From an uncultured Ardenticatenia bacterium (GTDB lineage Bacteria > Chloroflexota > Anaerolineae > 4572-78 > NAK82): a stretch of 64,000 bases of DNA. Shown piece after piece: positions 27,449 through 32,973 of the stretch. The notes beneath the pieces were generated by a model. It saw only the letters and a program-made list of their open reading frames with translations, did not search any database and was not told the origin of the DNA. Made by a program: the position numbers and the translations under genes. The stretch covers positions 1 to 64,000 of the forward strand of contig CAKZLO010000062.1 of NCBI GenBank assembly GCA_937127125.1, read 5' to 3'. Position 1 is the first letter of the stretch. Every line of letters starts with the position of its first letter.

Positions 27449-28114
27449 CTAGCTGTCTGGGGCAGCCTCGCAAAGCATCGCCAGCAGGAGGTCAGGTAGC
27501 TGGGCTGGATCAGTTACCAGTGCGTCTGCCGTTGCCAGCTCCTCTGCTGACCCATAACCGTATAGAACCCCGACCGCACGCAAACCGTGCGCATGGGCTG
27601 CTTCAATATCCACTGCGCGGTCACCCACCACCACCGCCGGGCGAGGTGCCAAATGTTGCAACACCTCACCAATCATCAGACGTTTATTGTCCGTAGGAGA
27701 TTGGCGACACCTGATCAAATCAAAGAAATCCGCGATTGCATGGCTATTCAATACCTCAGTGGCATAGCGCGAAGATGCATAGGTACAGAGGGCCATAGCG
27801 CCGACAACAGAACGCAATTGGGTCAAAACCTGACGCACACCATCATAGAGATGGCCAGATCGAGAGAGCAACCTATGCTCTCGCTGGAGCACTGCTTCCA
27901 GTATCTCATCCGCCAAGTGGGTTGGACAGAGGGAACGTACCCACTGATGAAATTCATCTTCCAGGGGACCAATATATTGGACGATCTCTTGCTCGGTCGG
28001 GGGTTGCAACCCGTATTCGGCAAAAACCTGTTGCATTGCTGGAACAGTAGCACGATCCGAGCAAAAAAGGGTGCCATCGAGATCAAAGATAATCAGTCCG
28101 CGATGATTCTCCAT
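27449..28114 (-). CDS. HAD-family phosphatase, phosphoglycolate-phosphatase-like
   Basis: In this 221-aa protein, motif I is FDLDGTL (nucleophile Asp and acid/base Asp) near residue 10, followed by a helical cap (about 18-85), CTYASS as motif II, NKRLM supplying the Lys, and VVGDRAVDIEAA as motif IV. This is the Gph/PpaX type of small-molecule phosphatase. The true substrate cannot be read from sequence. It follows the CbiX-like gene by 18 nt, so they are cotranscribed. Confidence 0.85.
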   Translation of the reverse strand: MENHRGLIIFDLDGTLFCSDRATVPAMQQVFAEYGLQPPTEQEIVQYIGPLEDEFHQWVRSLCPTHLADEILEAVLQREHRLLSRSGHLYDGVRQVLTQLRSVVGAMALCTYASSRYATEVLNSHAIADFFDLIRCRQSPTDNKRLMIGEVLQHLAPRPAVVVGDRAVDIEAAHAHGLRAVGVLYGYGSAEELATADALVTDPAQLPDLLLAMLCEAAPDS

Positions 28115-28132: not shown

Positions 28133-28645
28133 TCACACAGTGAAACGGGCGATTTGGGCGGCCAAGAAAGCAGCAATCGCTTCGTCGGAAAATGGCCAAG
28201 CATACGTGAATGTGACGTCGGGATGACGCTCTCGGGCTTGTTCGATAGCGGCAGGGATCTCTTTTTCCGCATGTTCGCCGCCACGCGTCAACATGGGGGT
28301 GAGCACCACAATGTGTTGCGCGCCTCGCTGAACAGCAATGTCTAACCCTTCCTCTAAGGAAGGGGCACAGAATTCATTGAAGGCGACTATCACTTCTTTA
28401 CCGGTCAGACCTCTGAGCCGAGTGGCGATCTCTTGTGACGCGGTGTAGAAGGGATCATTGGCAGGGGTACGCGGCCACGTGCGCACTCGCCGATCCAGCT
28501 CTCTGAGATGCTGTTCGAGCAATGGCCGATCTTCCGGCAGAGCACGCCTAATCTGAGCCCGCAAAGAAAAGAGCTCCTCCAGCTCTTGGCGGGGAAAATC
28601 ACTAGGCAGTGCACCATGCGTGGCGAGCACAATGACAGTCTTCAT
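28133..28645 (-). CDS. cbiX: CbiX/SirB-type sirohydrochlorin chelatase-like protein
   Basis: The 170-aa protein begins TVIVLATHGALPSD, and the metal-binding half ends with LTPMLTRGGEHAEKEIP. Both carry the His residues that CbiX/SirB chelatases use to insert Co2+ or Fe2+ into sirohydrochlorin. The role fits with the corrinoid protein elsewhere in the window. Between the halves lies an insert (residues 20-60) rich in Glu/Arg that is not usual, so it may be a divergent paralogue. Confidence 0.75.
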   Translation of the reverse strand: MKTVIVLATHGALPSDFPRQELEELFSLRAQIRRALPEDRPLLEQHLRELDRRVRTWPRTPANDPFYTASQEIATRLRGLTGKEVIVAFNEFCAPSLEEGLDIAVQRGAQHIVVLTPMLTRGGEHAEKEIPAAIEQARERHPDVTFTYAWPFSDEAIAAFLAAQIARFTV

Positions 28646-28832
28646 AGCGCGAGCTTCACTATGCCTTTCTTCTCTGAAGAATTAGTGTTGCTACGTAGGC
28701 ACAATATGTTACCACGTCCCAGCAATGAATCCATAATCTTTGCCCGCGAGACACATAGTAAGACTTTTTTGTTACCACGCGCCAAACTTTTAGTGCCCAG
28801 GGCAACTATCGAATTAGCCAGTAATGATTGCC

Positions 28833-28872
28833 AAAAACGAGATAGCGCCCAACAACCACATGGGCGCTATCT
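28833..28872 (-). terminator. Rho-independent terminator of the sulfur operon
   Basis: On the minus strand AGATAGCGCCCA pairs perfectly with TGGGCGCTATCT across a 9-nt loop and is followed by CGTTTTTGG. It lies 10 nt after the DsrE-like gene stop. Confidence 0.85.
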
Positions 28873-28881
28873 TTGCGCTTC

Positions 28882-29352
28882 TCAGATGAAGATAATTTGG
28901 GCGCCTTCGCTAATCTCCATAAACTCCATAGCGCCCAGGACACGTTCCACGCCTGGGAACAAGTCCTCCTTGGTTAGCTTCATCATGTCCATAGACATCT
29001 TGCAGCCGTATAGATGACCTCCAGCATCCACTATCATCTGCAGAAACTCGCGCACAGGCGGGAAGTCCAGCTTTGCAATTTCCTTCTTCATCATAGAAGT
29101 TGCCATAGCGGTCATTCCGGGCAAGATGCTGAGCAAGTTGGGCATTCCCATACTCGGGTTACCGAGGGGGGTTATCTTCAAGTTGTCCATTTTGCGGTCC
29201 ACAATCATGTCGAGGCCCCAGAAGGTGAAAAACATGTGCACCTCAATGCCTGACATAAGCGCTGCATTCGCCAGCACCATGCCCGGGTAGGCCATATCAA
29301 GGCTGCCTTTAGAACAGATAATCGCCAGCTTACGCTGCTTTTCTTCGCTCAT
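28882..29352 (-). CDS. DsrE/DsrF-like sulfur carrier protein
   Basis: The 156-aa protein starts at the ATG 29352, which has AAGGAGAGG upstream; the track's longer frame has no such site. It has the DsrE fold order with KLAIICSKGSLDMAYPGMVLANAALMSG at the start, EVHMFFTFWGL, a Met-rich flexible loop, and a conserved Cys in HLYGCKMSMDMM at the site of the active-site Cys of DsrE3/peroxiredoxin-like sulfurtransferases. It probably receives and passes persulfide sulfur. It is the last gene of the operon, 39 nt after the TusE/DsrC-like gene. Confidence 0.85.
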   Translation of the reverse strand: MSEEKQRKLAIICSKGSLDMAYPGMVLANAALMSGIEVHMFFTFWGLDMIVDRKMDNLKITPLGNPSMGMPNLLSILPGMTAMATSMMKKEIAKLDFPPVREFLQMIVDAGGHLYGCKMSMDMMKLTKEDLFPGVERVLGAMEFMEISEGAQIIFI

Positions 29353-29391
29353 CCCATCCTCTCCTTGCTGTAATGTACTCTCTCTTGCCAA

Positions 29392-29709
29392 TCAGATACA
29401 ACCGGTTGGCTTGCCCAAGCCGGCAATGCGTGCCACCTTCTTAGCTGGCCCTTTTGGGAACAAAGTGTAAAGCGTCTTGGTGTCCACTCCGCTCTCCTTG
29501 GTGATGCGGCGCAATGTGGGCGGTTCCCCTCGCGCCTTGAAGTCAGCGCGACAAAACTCGATCACTTTCCAGTGCAAATCGGTCAGTTGCTCAATACCCT
29601 CTTCGCGGGCAATCTCCTCAGCTATCTCCTTGCTCCACTCATCTGGATTGCACAGAAACCCCTCTGCATCTACTTCTACAACTTTTCCTGCGATTTCACG
29701 GCTTGGCAT
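29392..29709 (-). CDS. TusE/DsrC-family protein with a single C-terminal cysteine
   Basis: The 105-aa protein ends GLGKPTGCI, the C-terminal arm of DsrC/TusE with its penultimate Cys. DsrC proteins of sulfite reduction have a second Cys ten residues before it (about Cx10C). Here that position reads A in KKVARIAG, so only one active Cys remains, as in TusE and related carriers. DLHWKVIEFCR and RRITKESGV are also typical. It has a strong AGGAGGG site. The neighbours (SQR-like, DUF1641, DsrE-like) suggest sulfur-atom trafficking from sulfide oxidation rather than dissimilatory sulfite reduction. Confidence 0.88.
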   Translation of the reverse strand: MPSREIAGKVVEVDAEGFLCNPDEWSKEIAEEIAREEGIEQLTDLHWKVIEFCRADFKARGEPPTLRRITKESGVDTKTLYTLFPKGPAKKVARIAGLGKPTGCI

Positions 29710-29805
29710 ATTTCCCTCCTAATACTTTTTACTTTATAAGGTGTCCTTATGGTTCAAATCCAGTACAGGTAATCAGTGTAACATACAATGCTTCTTTCGT
29801 CTCTA

Positions 29806-30489
29806 CTATTGTTCACCCAACACGTTGAGCACACGTAGAGTGCGTGCCAGCCCACGACGGGTGGCTGGATTGTTCAGTTGACGGATCAGACTGAACCAAG
29901 AGGCATCCGCTGTCCCATCCTCCTGCACAGCGTGAAGTGTGCGCTGTAGCAATTCTTGTGTCTCAGGTCGGGCCAGATCCTTAAGTGTCGTCACTAAAGG
30001 ACCAACGTTATGGGGTAGCTGCTCCAGCTCCTCCTGGCTGAACGAGCTTACTACTCCCTCGAATGAGTCGAACACAGCACGCAGGAAGGCAAAATATCCC
30101 TTGCGTTCCATTTCATCGAGGCGGTTGATGAGAGTGATGACCACGTCACGTGTGAGCGGGCTGAAGTCCTGCCAGAAGTCCATTACACTTTCTATCTGCT
30201 CCAGCATCTGCCCCAACATACAGGTGTCACGCAACAGTCTCTTGATCAACAGAAGGACATTTTCGATGCGGGCACACTGTTCCACCTCTTCGAGCTGCTC
30301 GGATAGAAGCTGAAAAGCTTCCTTGGAAATGGGTGTAAGATCAGCGATCAGATCATCCCATTGCTGCTGTCGTTGCCTCTGACGCAAGGCTTCCTCAGTA
30401 AGGAATTCCACCTGAGCTGTCAGGCGATCAAGTTTTTGGGACAGCTCAGCAAGCGATGTCTCCGCGAGCGCTGTAGTTTCTTCTGCCAT
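29806..30489 (-). CDS. DUF1641 family protein
   Basis: The 227-aa helical protein has an N-terminal coiled-coil stretch (LSQKLDRLTAQVEFLTEEALRQRQRQ) and a middle with the DUF1641-like VITLINRLDEMERKGYFAFLRAV. DUF1641 proteins commonly sit next to SQR-type oxidoreductases; the link is guilt by association. It is 10 nt after the SQR-like gene with GGAGAGG before the ATG. No membrane helix. Confidence 0.8.
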   Translation of the reverse strand: MAEETTALAETSLAELSQKLDRLTAQVEFLTEEALRQRQRQQQWDDLIADLTPISKEAFQLLSEQLEEVEQCARIENVLLLIKRLLRDTCMLGQMLEQIESVMDFWQDFSPLTRDVVITLINRLDEMERKGYFAFLRAVFDSFEGVVSSFSQEELEQLPHNVGPLVTTLKDLARPETQELLQRTLHAVQEDGTADASWFSLIRQLNNPATRRGLARTLRVLNVLGEQ

Positions 30490-30499
30490 AGCGCCTCTC

Positions 30500-31732
30500 C
30501 TACGCCCACTTGCCAGCCATTGACATATGGGTGGTGATGGGTAACTCCTTACCCTTAAGCAGCAAGTTCCAGTAGATCCAACGGAACATCATTTTGCCCC
30601 AGTGGTTGATGGCTGACTCCTGCAACAGGGAGAAGGGACCCAATCCAGGCAAGGGATAACGGCCTGGCAGTGGTTCAACATCATAGTTGAAGTCGATCAG
30701 GAAACCTTTGCCAAAACCCGATTCGATGTAGCAATTGGCGTGTCCATCGAAACTTGCCGTCATCTCCAAACCATCGATGTAGCGCAAGAAATTCTCGGTG
30801 AAGACCTCGGCTTGGAAATGAGCCACCGAGCCCGCTTTGGAGGTGGGAACATCTGCTGCATCACCCAACGCGAAAATGTTGGGGTATTGGATCGAGAGAA
30901 GAGTATGCTTGTCCACCGGTACATGATTAGTGTCATTCCCCAGACCAGAACGCGCGATCACATCATCTCCCATATGGATTGCTACAGAGACCAGCAGGTC
31001 ATACTCGACCTCTTGACCGTCATAAGAGACAATCTTATGTGCCTCGGCATCCACGGACTCCACAGCGAACTCAGGCACTACGTGGATATTTTTTTCTGCC
31101 AGCAGGTTACCCAGCAGCTGCGAAGCGCGCGGTTTGGTAAACGCGCCCGGCAGCGGTGTGACAAGCGTGAGTTCCACTCGGGAGCGCTTGCCCAGCTCGT
31201 GAAAGTACCAGTCGGCCAGGAAAAGGAACTCCAATGGAGCCACCGGACATTTAATGGGAAGCTCCGAGATATTGAGCACCAGACGCCCACCTTCCCAGCT
31301 ACGCAGATACTTCGCCAGCGCCACAGCACCTTCAAGGGTGTAGAACTCGTGAATGGACTTGTGCCATTCGGGCCCCAGCAATCCAGGGACTTCTTCGTAA
31401 CGCGGTTGTGAGCCCGTGGCGATCACCAAGAAGTCATAGGGTAAGTACCGTCCGTCTTTCTCCAGGCGCACGCGATTCTGGTCTGGTTCAATTGCCTCGA
31501 TGCGCGACAGAATCATCTTAACGCCTGGCGGAATGTAGTCGCGACGCGGTTTGAGCACGTCGTTCCTTGTATAGATACCAAACGGGATAAACAAGTAACC
31601 CGGTTGGTAATGGTGTACTTCGCTCTGATCTACAATGGTGATGTCCCACTCTTCTGGATCAAGAGCACGTCTTAGTTTGTTAACCACAATGGTGCCGGCG
31701 GTGCCGGCGCCGAGTACCAAAAGTCGCTTCAT
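30500..31732 (-). CDS. Sulfide:quinone oxidoreductase-like flavoprotein
   Basis: The 410-aa protein has an N-terminal FAD dinucleotide fold (VLGAGTAGTIVVNKL), DFLVIATGSQPRY and FALGDAADVPTSKAGSVAHFQ. Cysteines occur in LPIKCPVAPLEF (near residue 160) and ANCYIESGFGKG, positions used for the redox pair and flavin link in SQR. C-terminal amphipathic segments (HWGKMMFRWIYWNLLLKG) fit monotopic membrane attachment. It would oxidise sulfide and reduce quinone, with sulfane sulfur passed to the TusE- and DsrE-like carriers. The related NADH dehydrogenase-like flavoproteins are the alternative. Confidence 0.85.
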   Translation of the reverse strand: MKRLLVLGAGTAGTIVVNKLRRALDPEEWDITIVDQSEVHHYQPGYLFIPFGIYTRNDVLKPRRDYIPPGVKMILSRIEAIEPDQNRVRLEKDGRYLPYDFLVIATGSQPRYEEVPGLLGPEWHKSIHEFYTLEGAVALAKYLRSWEGGRLVLNISELPIKCPVAPLEFLFLADWYFHELGKRSRVELTLVTPLPGAFTKPRASQLLGNLLAEKNIHVVPEFAVESVDAEAHKIVSYDGQEVEYDLLVSVAIHMGDDVIARSGLGNDTNHVPVDKHTLLSIQYPNIFALGDAADVPTSKAGSVAHFQAEVFTENFLRYIDGLEMTASFDGHANCYIESGFGKGFLIDFNYDVEPLPGRYPLPGLGPFSLLQESAINHWGKMMFRWIYWNLLLKGKELPITTHMSMAGKWA

Positions 31733-31891: not shown

Positions 31892-32674
31892 TCAACGGGT
31901 CAGCTCAGCAATTGCTGCCAGCTTTGCCATTAGCGCACGCCTTTCGTTGGCGATGTGGGCAATCACGTCAGCGATGCGTTGTACCAGGTCAGTCAGGCGT
32001 GCACGCTGCGCAGCGTCCGCATAGTACACCTCATGGATGTGGGCAGCTAGCAATTCGGCGTCCACGCCGTGGCGTGCAGCAATTGCCTGTATTTCCTCGG
32101 GGGACGGAGGCCAGTCATCTGGCGCAATGCCTCCCATAATAACCATCCCCTTCAGCTCGTTGCCAACACGTACCAGGCCGCGCACGCACAACAATCCAAG
32201 TGAGCTTGGCAGCATGCGCGCTTCCACCTCTGGCGTTGCGCCCAGCGTGTGCCAGCTAGCAATACATGAACGGAGCGCGTGTGGCACTTGGCTGACAACA
32301 CAAAAAAGTCCACAAGGCCGGCTCACTTCTGTCACAGGGTTGCCCTCCAGATCTGTGACAACCACCATCACCCCGGAGAGCTCAGCGAAGATGTCCTGGA
32401 TCAGCTGAACACATTGAAGGGGAAGTAAAGCGGCAAGCTCTCCTTGCAATGTGGCAACATCCGCAGGCGGAGGCGCTGTGACCTGCGAGCTATAGACTTG
32501 GGTCACAGTGCGCGACCTCAGCCAGTGCTCCACTTGGTCGCTAGGGAAGCGCCACTGCTTTCCCACCTTGATAGCAGGGAGCTGGCCCGCCTCGGCCATG
32601 CGATAGATCGTCGAGCGGTCCACTTGCAACAATGCTTGCATATCGCGGGCGGTCAACATTTCAGGCATTCGCAC
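31892..32674 (-). CDS. HTH regulator with a PocR sensor domain
   Basis: In this 260-aa protein, residues 1-55 are an excisionase/MerR-like HTH_17 (MLTARDMQALLQVDRSTIYRM ... RFPSDQVEHWLRSR). Residues 85-220 match the PocR ligand-binding domain, with the Cys pattern FC...SC...LC and ELKGMVIMGG. Some PocR domains bind small hydrocarbon-derived ligands; the cysteines could also bind metal. The C-terminus is a coiled coil. It is on the same strand and 159 nt upstream of the SQR operon, so it is a candidate regulator. The first codon may be GTG 32674 or ATG 32668. Its promoter contains four GCAT repeats. Confidence 0.8.
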   Translation of the reverse strand: MRMPEMLTARDMQALLQVDRSTIYRMAEAGQLPAIKVGKQWRFPSDQVEHWLRSRTVTQVYSSQVTAPPPADVATLQGELAALLPLQCVQLIQDIFAELSGVMVVVTDLEGNPVTEVSRPCGLFCVVSQVPHALRSCIASWHTLGATPEVEARMLPSSLGLLCVRGLVRVGNELKGMVIMGGIAPDDWPPSPEEIQAIAARHGVDAELLAAHIHEVYYADAAQRARLTDLVQRIADVIAHIANERRALMAKLAAIAELTR

Positions 32675-32973
32675 ATCGCCCTTGCGCTTTGTGTGCAGAA
32701 TATGGATGTTTTTGCATCATAAGCATCAAATGCATAATACACACATAATGCATCATTTGTCAAGTGCAAGAGATTGAACTTCTGGATCAGTTCGATTATG
32801 GAGCCAACAAGCGTGGAAGATCACAAGTGTGTGGGTTTGGGCTACTTTAGCCACCGGGATAAGAAAGGCACAATGATGTTGACGCGGTTGCGTTCGCAGA
32901 GATAATCATTTTTAGCGCGATTGAGACTCGCTTGTTTCTTACGCGACATTACTAGAGGACGAAGAACGCAGAG
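32675..32973. other. Divergent spacer
   Basis: It holds the promoter and repeats at 32714-32763 for the minus-strand regulator. The rest, leading to the plus-strand NTPase gene, is AT-rich with no promoter that I can call with confidence. Confidence 0.5.
32714..32763 (-). promoter_or_regulatory. Promoter with four GCAT(C/A)A repeats
   Basis: On the minus strand TTGACA (32758-32763), an 18-bp spacer and TATTAT (32734-32739) form a good sigma70-type promoter. Copies of GCATCAT, GCATCAA, GCATAAT and GCATCAT start at 32714, 32723, 32732 and 32750, overlapping the -10 box and spacer. The first three are spaced 9 bp apart and the fourth is 18 bp further. This is a likely autoregulatory operator of the PocR regulator. 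Confidence 0.6.

Follow-up and report, generated by a model that had tools for sequence, protein, structure and literature searches.

In Allochromatium vinosum, sulfur is passed from DsrEFH to the penultimate cysteine of DsrC only, the other arm cysteine being dispensable, and the transfer is one-way in vitro, with reverse transfer not seen (PMC3397948). Organisms that lack DsrAB have almost always lost the second cysteine of the DsrC arm (PMC3397948), and single-cysteine members of the family found without DsrAB are usually taken as TusE (PMC8190135). In the E. coli TusE, a threonine occupies the position of the upstream arm cysteine, giving the single-cysteine arm GPAKQATKIAGLPKPVKCI. Finding only one cysteine in the DsrC of a dsrAB-free genome therefore follows the published rule and is no surprise. 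The new part of the locus described here is the coupling of such a protein to a flavoprotein of the sulfide quinone reductase (SQR) type.

The locus lies on the minus strand of the window, by which we mean the whole 64,000-nucleotide stretch analyzed. A first-pass annotation made from the sequence alone had proposed a contiguous set of SQR-, DUF1641-, TusE/DsrC- and DsrE-like genes ending in a clear terminator, and we found all four in place: an SQR-type flavoprotein of 410 amino acids with the redox cysteines Cys162 and Cys334 (30500..31732), a DUF1641-related all-helical protein of 227 amino acids (29806..30489), a DsrC/TusE-family sulfur carrier of 105 amino acids with Cys104 and Ala93 (29392..29709), and a DsrE2-like sulfurtransferase with Cys130 and Cys26 (28882..29352). 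The coordinates of the last gene are for an ATG start at 29352, which is more likely than the TTG at 29391; its residue numbers are counted from the TTG. The terminator also held up, as an intrinsic hairpin with a T-rich tail at 28832..28873 on the same strand (12-bp stem, then TCGTTTTT; folding energy −25.3 kcal/mol, z = −4.12, with 1 of 200 shuffles equally stable). A generic scan had passed over it, its loop exceeding 8. Past the terminator, the minus strand carries genes for a CbiX-type chelatase-like protein (28133-28645) and a HAD hydrolase (27449-28114), which adjoin the operon in its two nearest relatives and in no others. On the other side, a regulator gene combining HTH_17 and PocR sensory domains (31892..32674, minus strand; PF10114 74.3 bits, PF12728 57.4 bits) lies 159 bases upstream of the SQR gene in the same direction, and the operon probably takes it in. 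Ahead of the regulator gene, at 32734..32763 on the minus strand, the putative promoter-like site TTGACA-18-TATTAT matches 11 of 12 consensus positions, but shuffled sequence yields about as many sites of this kind as the region does and the support for a promoter is thus weak.

The carrier belongs to the DsrC/TusE family (PF04358 121.4 bits; TIGR03342 92.7 bits against a cut-off of 53.5), and its arm ends in KKVARIAGLGKPTGCI, where the penultimate cysteine is present and the upstream one is alanine. This replacement, already noticed at first reading, is borne out by the arms of the relatives: Cys104 is found in 96 of 96 aligned sequences and Ala93 in at least 98%. A two-cysteine DsrC hidden by a frameshift was considered and rejected, the arm being intact in all operon relatives. 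With Ala93 and a host without NIR_SIR, the protein differs from a bona fide two-cysteine DsrC that partners DsrAB; it also falls below the equivalog cut-off of the NF008562 TusE model (70.4 of 191 bits), and the host has no match for the TusA and TusBCD that accompany the E. coli-type TusE. In a tree built on few columns (105), the operon DsrC proteins form one group apart from both the dsrAB-linked DsrC and the E. coli TusE (bootstrap 92).

The flavoprotein matches NF049943 over its full length (residues 2-408) with 635.6 bits against a curated cut-off of 525, and its best PDB match is human SQOR (1.6e-47). In the alignment to the human SQOR chain, Cys162 and Cys334 each fall on a cysteine, and both are kept in 77 of 77 aligned sequences. 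These data support assignment to the SQR family, and sulfide-dependent quinone reduction is predicted for the protein. An NADH dehydrogenase, the identity named in the first-pass annotation as counting against its proposal, is disfavored: NDH-2 structures match the N-terminal part only, and weakly, whereas SQOR matches the full length with both redox cysteines. The name of the NF049943 model, "type III sulfide quinone reductase, selenoprotein subtype", suggested a selenoprotein, which we rejected since no in-frame stop occurs in this SQR or in its relatives above the cut-off. The DsrE2-like protein matches PF13686 (123.5 bits) and scores 124.1 bits with the NF047629 DsrE2 equivalog model, short of the cut-off of 210; its Cys130 is present in 91 of 91 sequences and Cys26 in 85 of 91. 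The DUF1641-like protein alone is below the threshold of PF07849 (13.1 of 21 bits, E = 0.093), and we use the label because its orthologues match that family (45 of 45 aligned at E ≤ 0.1, the best 5.9e-12). It has no cysteine conserved among the aligned relatives, and its AlphaFold model is all-helical with low confidence (pTM 0.27) and of a quality too low to base a fold search on.

The gene set is real and widely conserved. A scan of the DsrC protein against 84,980 species genomes (GTDB) gave 80 loci, nearly all in Chloroflexota and a few in Bacteroidota/Ignavibacteria, and the operon is present in named cultured Anaerolineaceae. SQR lies a short way upstream of DsrC in all 70 loci with enough flanking sequence, and DsrE2 directly downstream in 76 of 78, the remaining two overlapping the end of DsrC by a few bases. 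DUF1641 stands between SQR and DsrC in 50 loci, while 19 of the 70, a subgroup of relatives, leave too little space for it. Of the 63 loci in which the gene position ahead of SQR is visible, 37 have a PocR regulator there and 18 an ArsR-family one instead (e.g., L074:3430-3792). One of the ArsR proteins is similar to BigR, a sulfur sensor, though it scores below the cut-off (48 of 155 bits). Besides the regulators, a search among the relatives for further conserved neighbors found none, and no acceptor gene is kept alongside. As the 80 loci were chosen by similarity, a survey of 301 Chloroflexota genomes is the less biased test; there, the SQR subfamily (>525 bits) and the operon DsrC type occurred in exactly the same 16 genomes (Fisher's P = 7e-27, relatedness not corrected for). 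The parts are of known kinds, and for their combination we found no earlier description in a search limited to open-licence papers.

The host genome, 95% complete, was searched family by family. It gave no match to the NIR_SIR sulfite reductase or TusA, and TusBCD was not found; its sole DsrE-family gene besides that of the operon appears by eye to have a YedF-type-like domain. None of the operon carriers tested has dsrA above the cut-off, and TusA is missing in 19 of 26. The absence of sulfite reductase proposed for the gene set thus holds, and a full dsrAB pathway with another DsrC, which the first-pass annotation had raised as the contrary case, did not emerge. Elsewhere in Chloroflexota, all five genomes that encode a two-cysteine DsrC have dsrA above the cut-off, on the contig that carries dsrC; a sixth genome with dsrA has a differently built one-cysteine DsrC on another contig. 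The pairing of two cysteines with dsrA and of one with its absence fits the rule linking the second cysteine to DsrAB (PMC3397948). An Hdr-like system elsewhere, also suggested as a destination for the sulfur, gained no support in the form of sHdr from the Hdr-type genes examined. The CCG-domain genes detected in the host belong to clusters that are hydrogenase-linked or encode other oxidoreductases: on contig C34 (28000-42000), HdrB accompanies HdrA, MvhD/FlpD, MvhG and MvhA, and on contig C44 (46000-62000), HdrA-, MvhD-, MvhG- and MvhA-like genes accompany an HdrD-like fusion and apparently EtfAB. Both clusters are unlinked to the SQR–DsrC operon.

We propose, with a probability of roughly 60%, that the operon serves sulfide oxidation and a sulfane-sulfur relay feeding a carrier chain and not a sulfite reductase. 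SQR would oxidize sulfide at its FAD and the Cys162/Cys334 pair, becoming persulfidated and passing the electrons to quinone. The sulfane sulfur would move from SQR to Cys130 of the DsrE2-like protein and on to Cys104, the only cysteine on the swinging arm of DsrC/TusE. The DsrC/TusE persulfide would then serve an acceptor encoded away from the operon, such as a thiolation enzyme like MnmA, low-molecular-weight thiols or a redox enzyme. The DUF1641 protein may be an accessory, perhaps an SQR adaptor. The reaction, its direction and its end points are predicted from gene content and conserved residues. The relay is supported by the identity of SQR, the synteny, the co-occurrence in 16 of 301 genomes, the separate DsrC group, the A. 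vinosum precedent and the menaquinone late-step genes of the host, and it is weakened by the lack of an adjoining acceptor gene, by MqnA/D and MenD not being found, and by the precedent having DsrEFH as the donor. The first-pass suggestion that sulfide oxidation feeds a carrier chain accords with the conserved cysteines of SQR, the invariant ones of the carriers and the absence of NIR_SIR and dsrA; its suggestion of tRNA thiolation survives as something the chain may serve, although a standard Tus relay would lack TusA and TusBCD in the host.

The late steps of menaquinone synthesis are represented in the host by a cluster of an MqnP-like UbiA, a TIGR03701 menaquinone decarboxylase and MenG (contig C34, 148500-167500), and the idea that the carriers have no quinone was not upheld for this genome. 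Searches of the host and of several carriers, complete single-contig genomes among them, gave neither MqnA/D (PF02621) nor MenD above the cut-off. Weak PF02621 matches in two Leptolinea genomes were not counted because, by eye, the genes look to be of the ABC-transporter type, and UbiA was useless as a presence test because every genome has members. As the early route was not found in the host and several carriers, quinone is named here as the predicted electron acceptor.

Detoxification or persulfide homeostasis, with SQR clearing sulfide and the carriers merely holding or dispersing the sulfane sulfur without a biosynthetic or energy end point, seems to us possible but rather doubtful. It would account for the lack of a conserved downstream enzyme and for the regulator upstream in 55 of the 63 visible loci (37 PocR, 18 ArsR), and the BigR-like ArsR protein, though below the cut-off, points the same way; the strictly kept carrier pair of Cys130 and Cys104 suggests directed transfer instead of dumping. 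Similarly tentative is a bolder form of the relay, in which SQR, the DsrE2-like protein and the single-cysteine DsrC would make up a distinct route, free of DsrAB, sHdr and TusA, to a new enzyme, possibly Hdr-Mvh, in Chloroflexota and a few Bacteroidota/Ignavibacteria.

Flow in the opposite sense, with the flavoprotein or a distant Hdr-Mvh reducing DsrC-borne sulfane sulfur in H2-linked sulfur or polysulfide reduction, is improbable. Hydrogenase-linked HdrA/HdrB-type clusters are indeed present in the host, and several of the named carrier genera are anaerobic fermenters. Hdr-type use of DsrC, however, is generally held to require a disulfide between both arm cysteines, which a one-cysteine protein cannot form. 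A sulfate reducer's DsrC has been reported to interact with the FlxABCD–HdrABC complex (PMC10504309), and this lends the idea some weight; the Hdr clusters here are unlinked to the operon, the oxidative direction is the normal one for SQR, and DsrEFH-to-DsrC transfer runs one way in vitro. That the protein is simply TusE for tRNA 2-thiouridine synthesis, merely coregulated with SQR, is just as unlikely: the E. coli-like single-cysteine arm and the usual assignment of such proteins speak for it, but the TusA and TusBCD gaps in the host, the TusA gaps among the carriers, the low NF008562 score and an occurrence only alongside the operon SQR, in 16 of 301 genomes and thus not as a housekeeping gene of the phylum, speak against it.

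The sulfane-sulfur relay would connect sulfide oxidation with a one-cysteine DsrC/TusE, a kind of protein commonly annotated as acting in tRNA thiolation, and would caution against using dsrC alone as a mark of Chloroflexota sulfate reducers or Dsr-type sulfur oxidizers. The system is compact and occurs in Anaerolineaceae that are named and in culture, so that what becomes of the sulfane sulfur from SQR can be tested in it. Among described systems, the E. coli Tus relay (TusA–TusBCD–TusE–MnmA) shares the single penultimate arm cysteine and a DsrE-superfamily donor ahead of DsrC/TusE, whereas here TusA and TusBCD are absent, a DsrE2-like donor and SQR stand in the operon, and the DsrC group is separate in the tree. 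The A. vinosum DsrEFH–DsrC–rDsrAB oxidation pathway has the same step from a DsrE-superfamily protein to the DsrC penultimate cysteine; the operon differs in having no DsrAB, one DsrE2-like protein in place of DsrEFH, and alanine for the second arm cysteine. The sHdr–LbpA pathway with its TusA/DsrE carriers is alike in using DsrE-superfamily sulfane sulfur carriers without DsrAB, but here TusA is absent, the HdrA/HdrB genes identified are hydrogenase-linked, and the operon has nothing sHdr-like. Finally, the flavoprotein resembles human SQOR and NF049943 in its full-length match, both redox cysteines and the C-terminal region; it has cysteine and no in-frame stop, in contrast to the selenoprotein of the model's name, and, set against the SQR family, it shares its operon with sulfur carriers.
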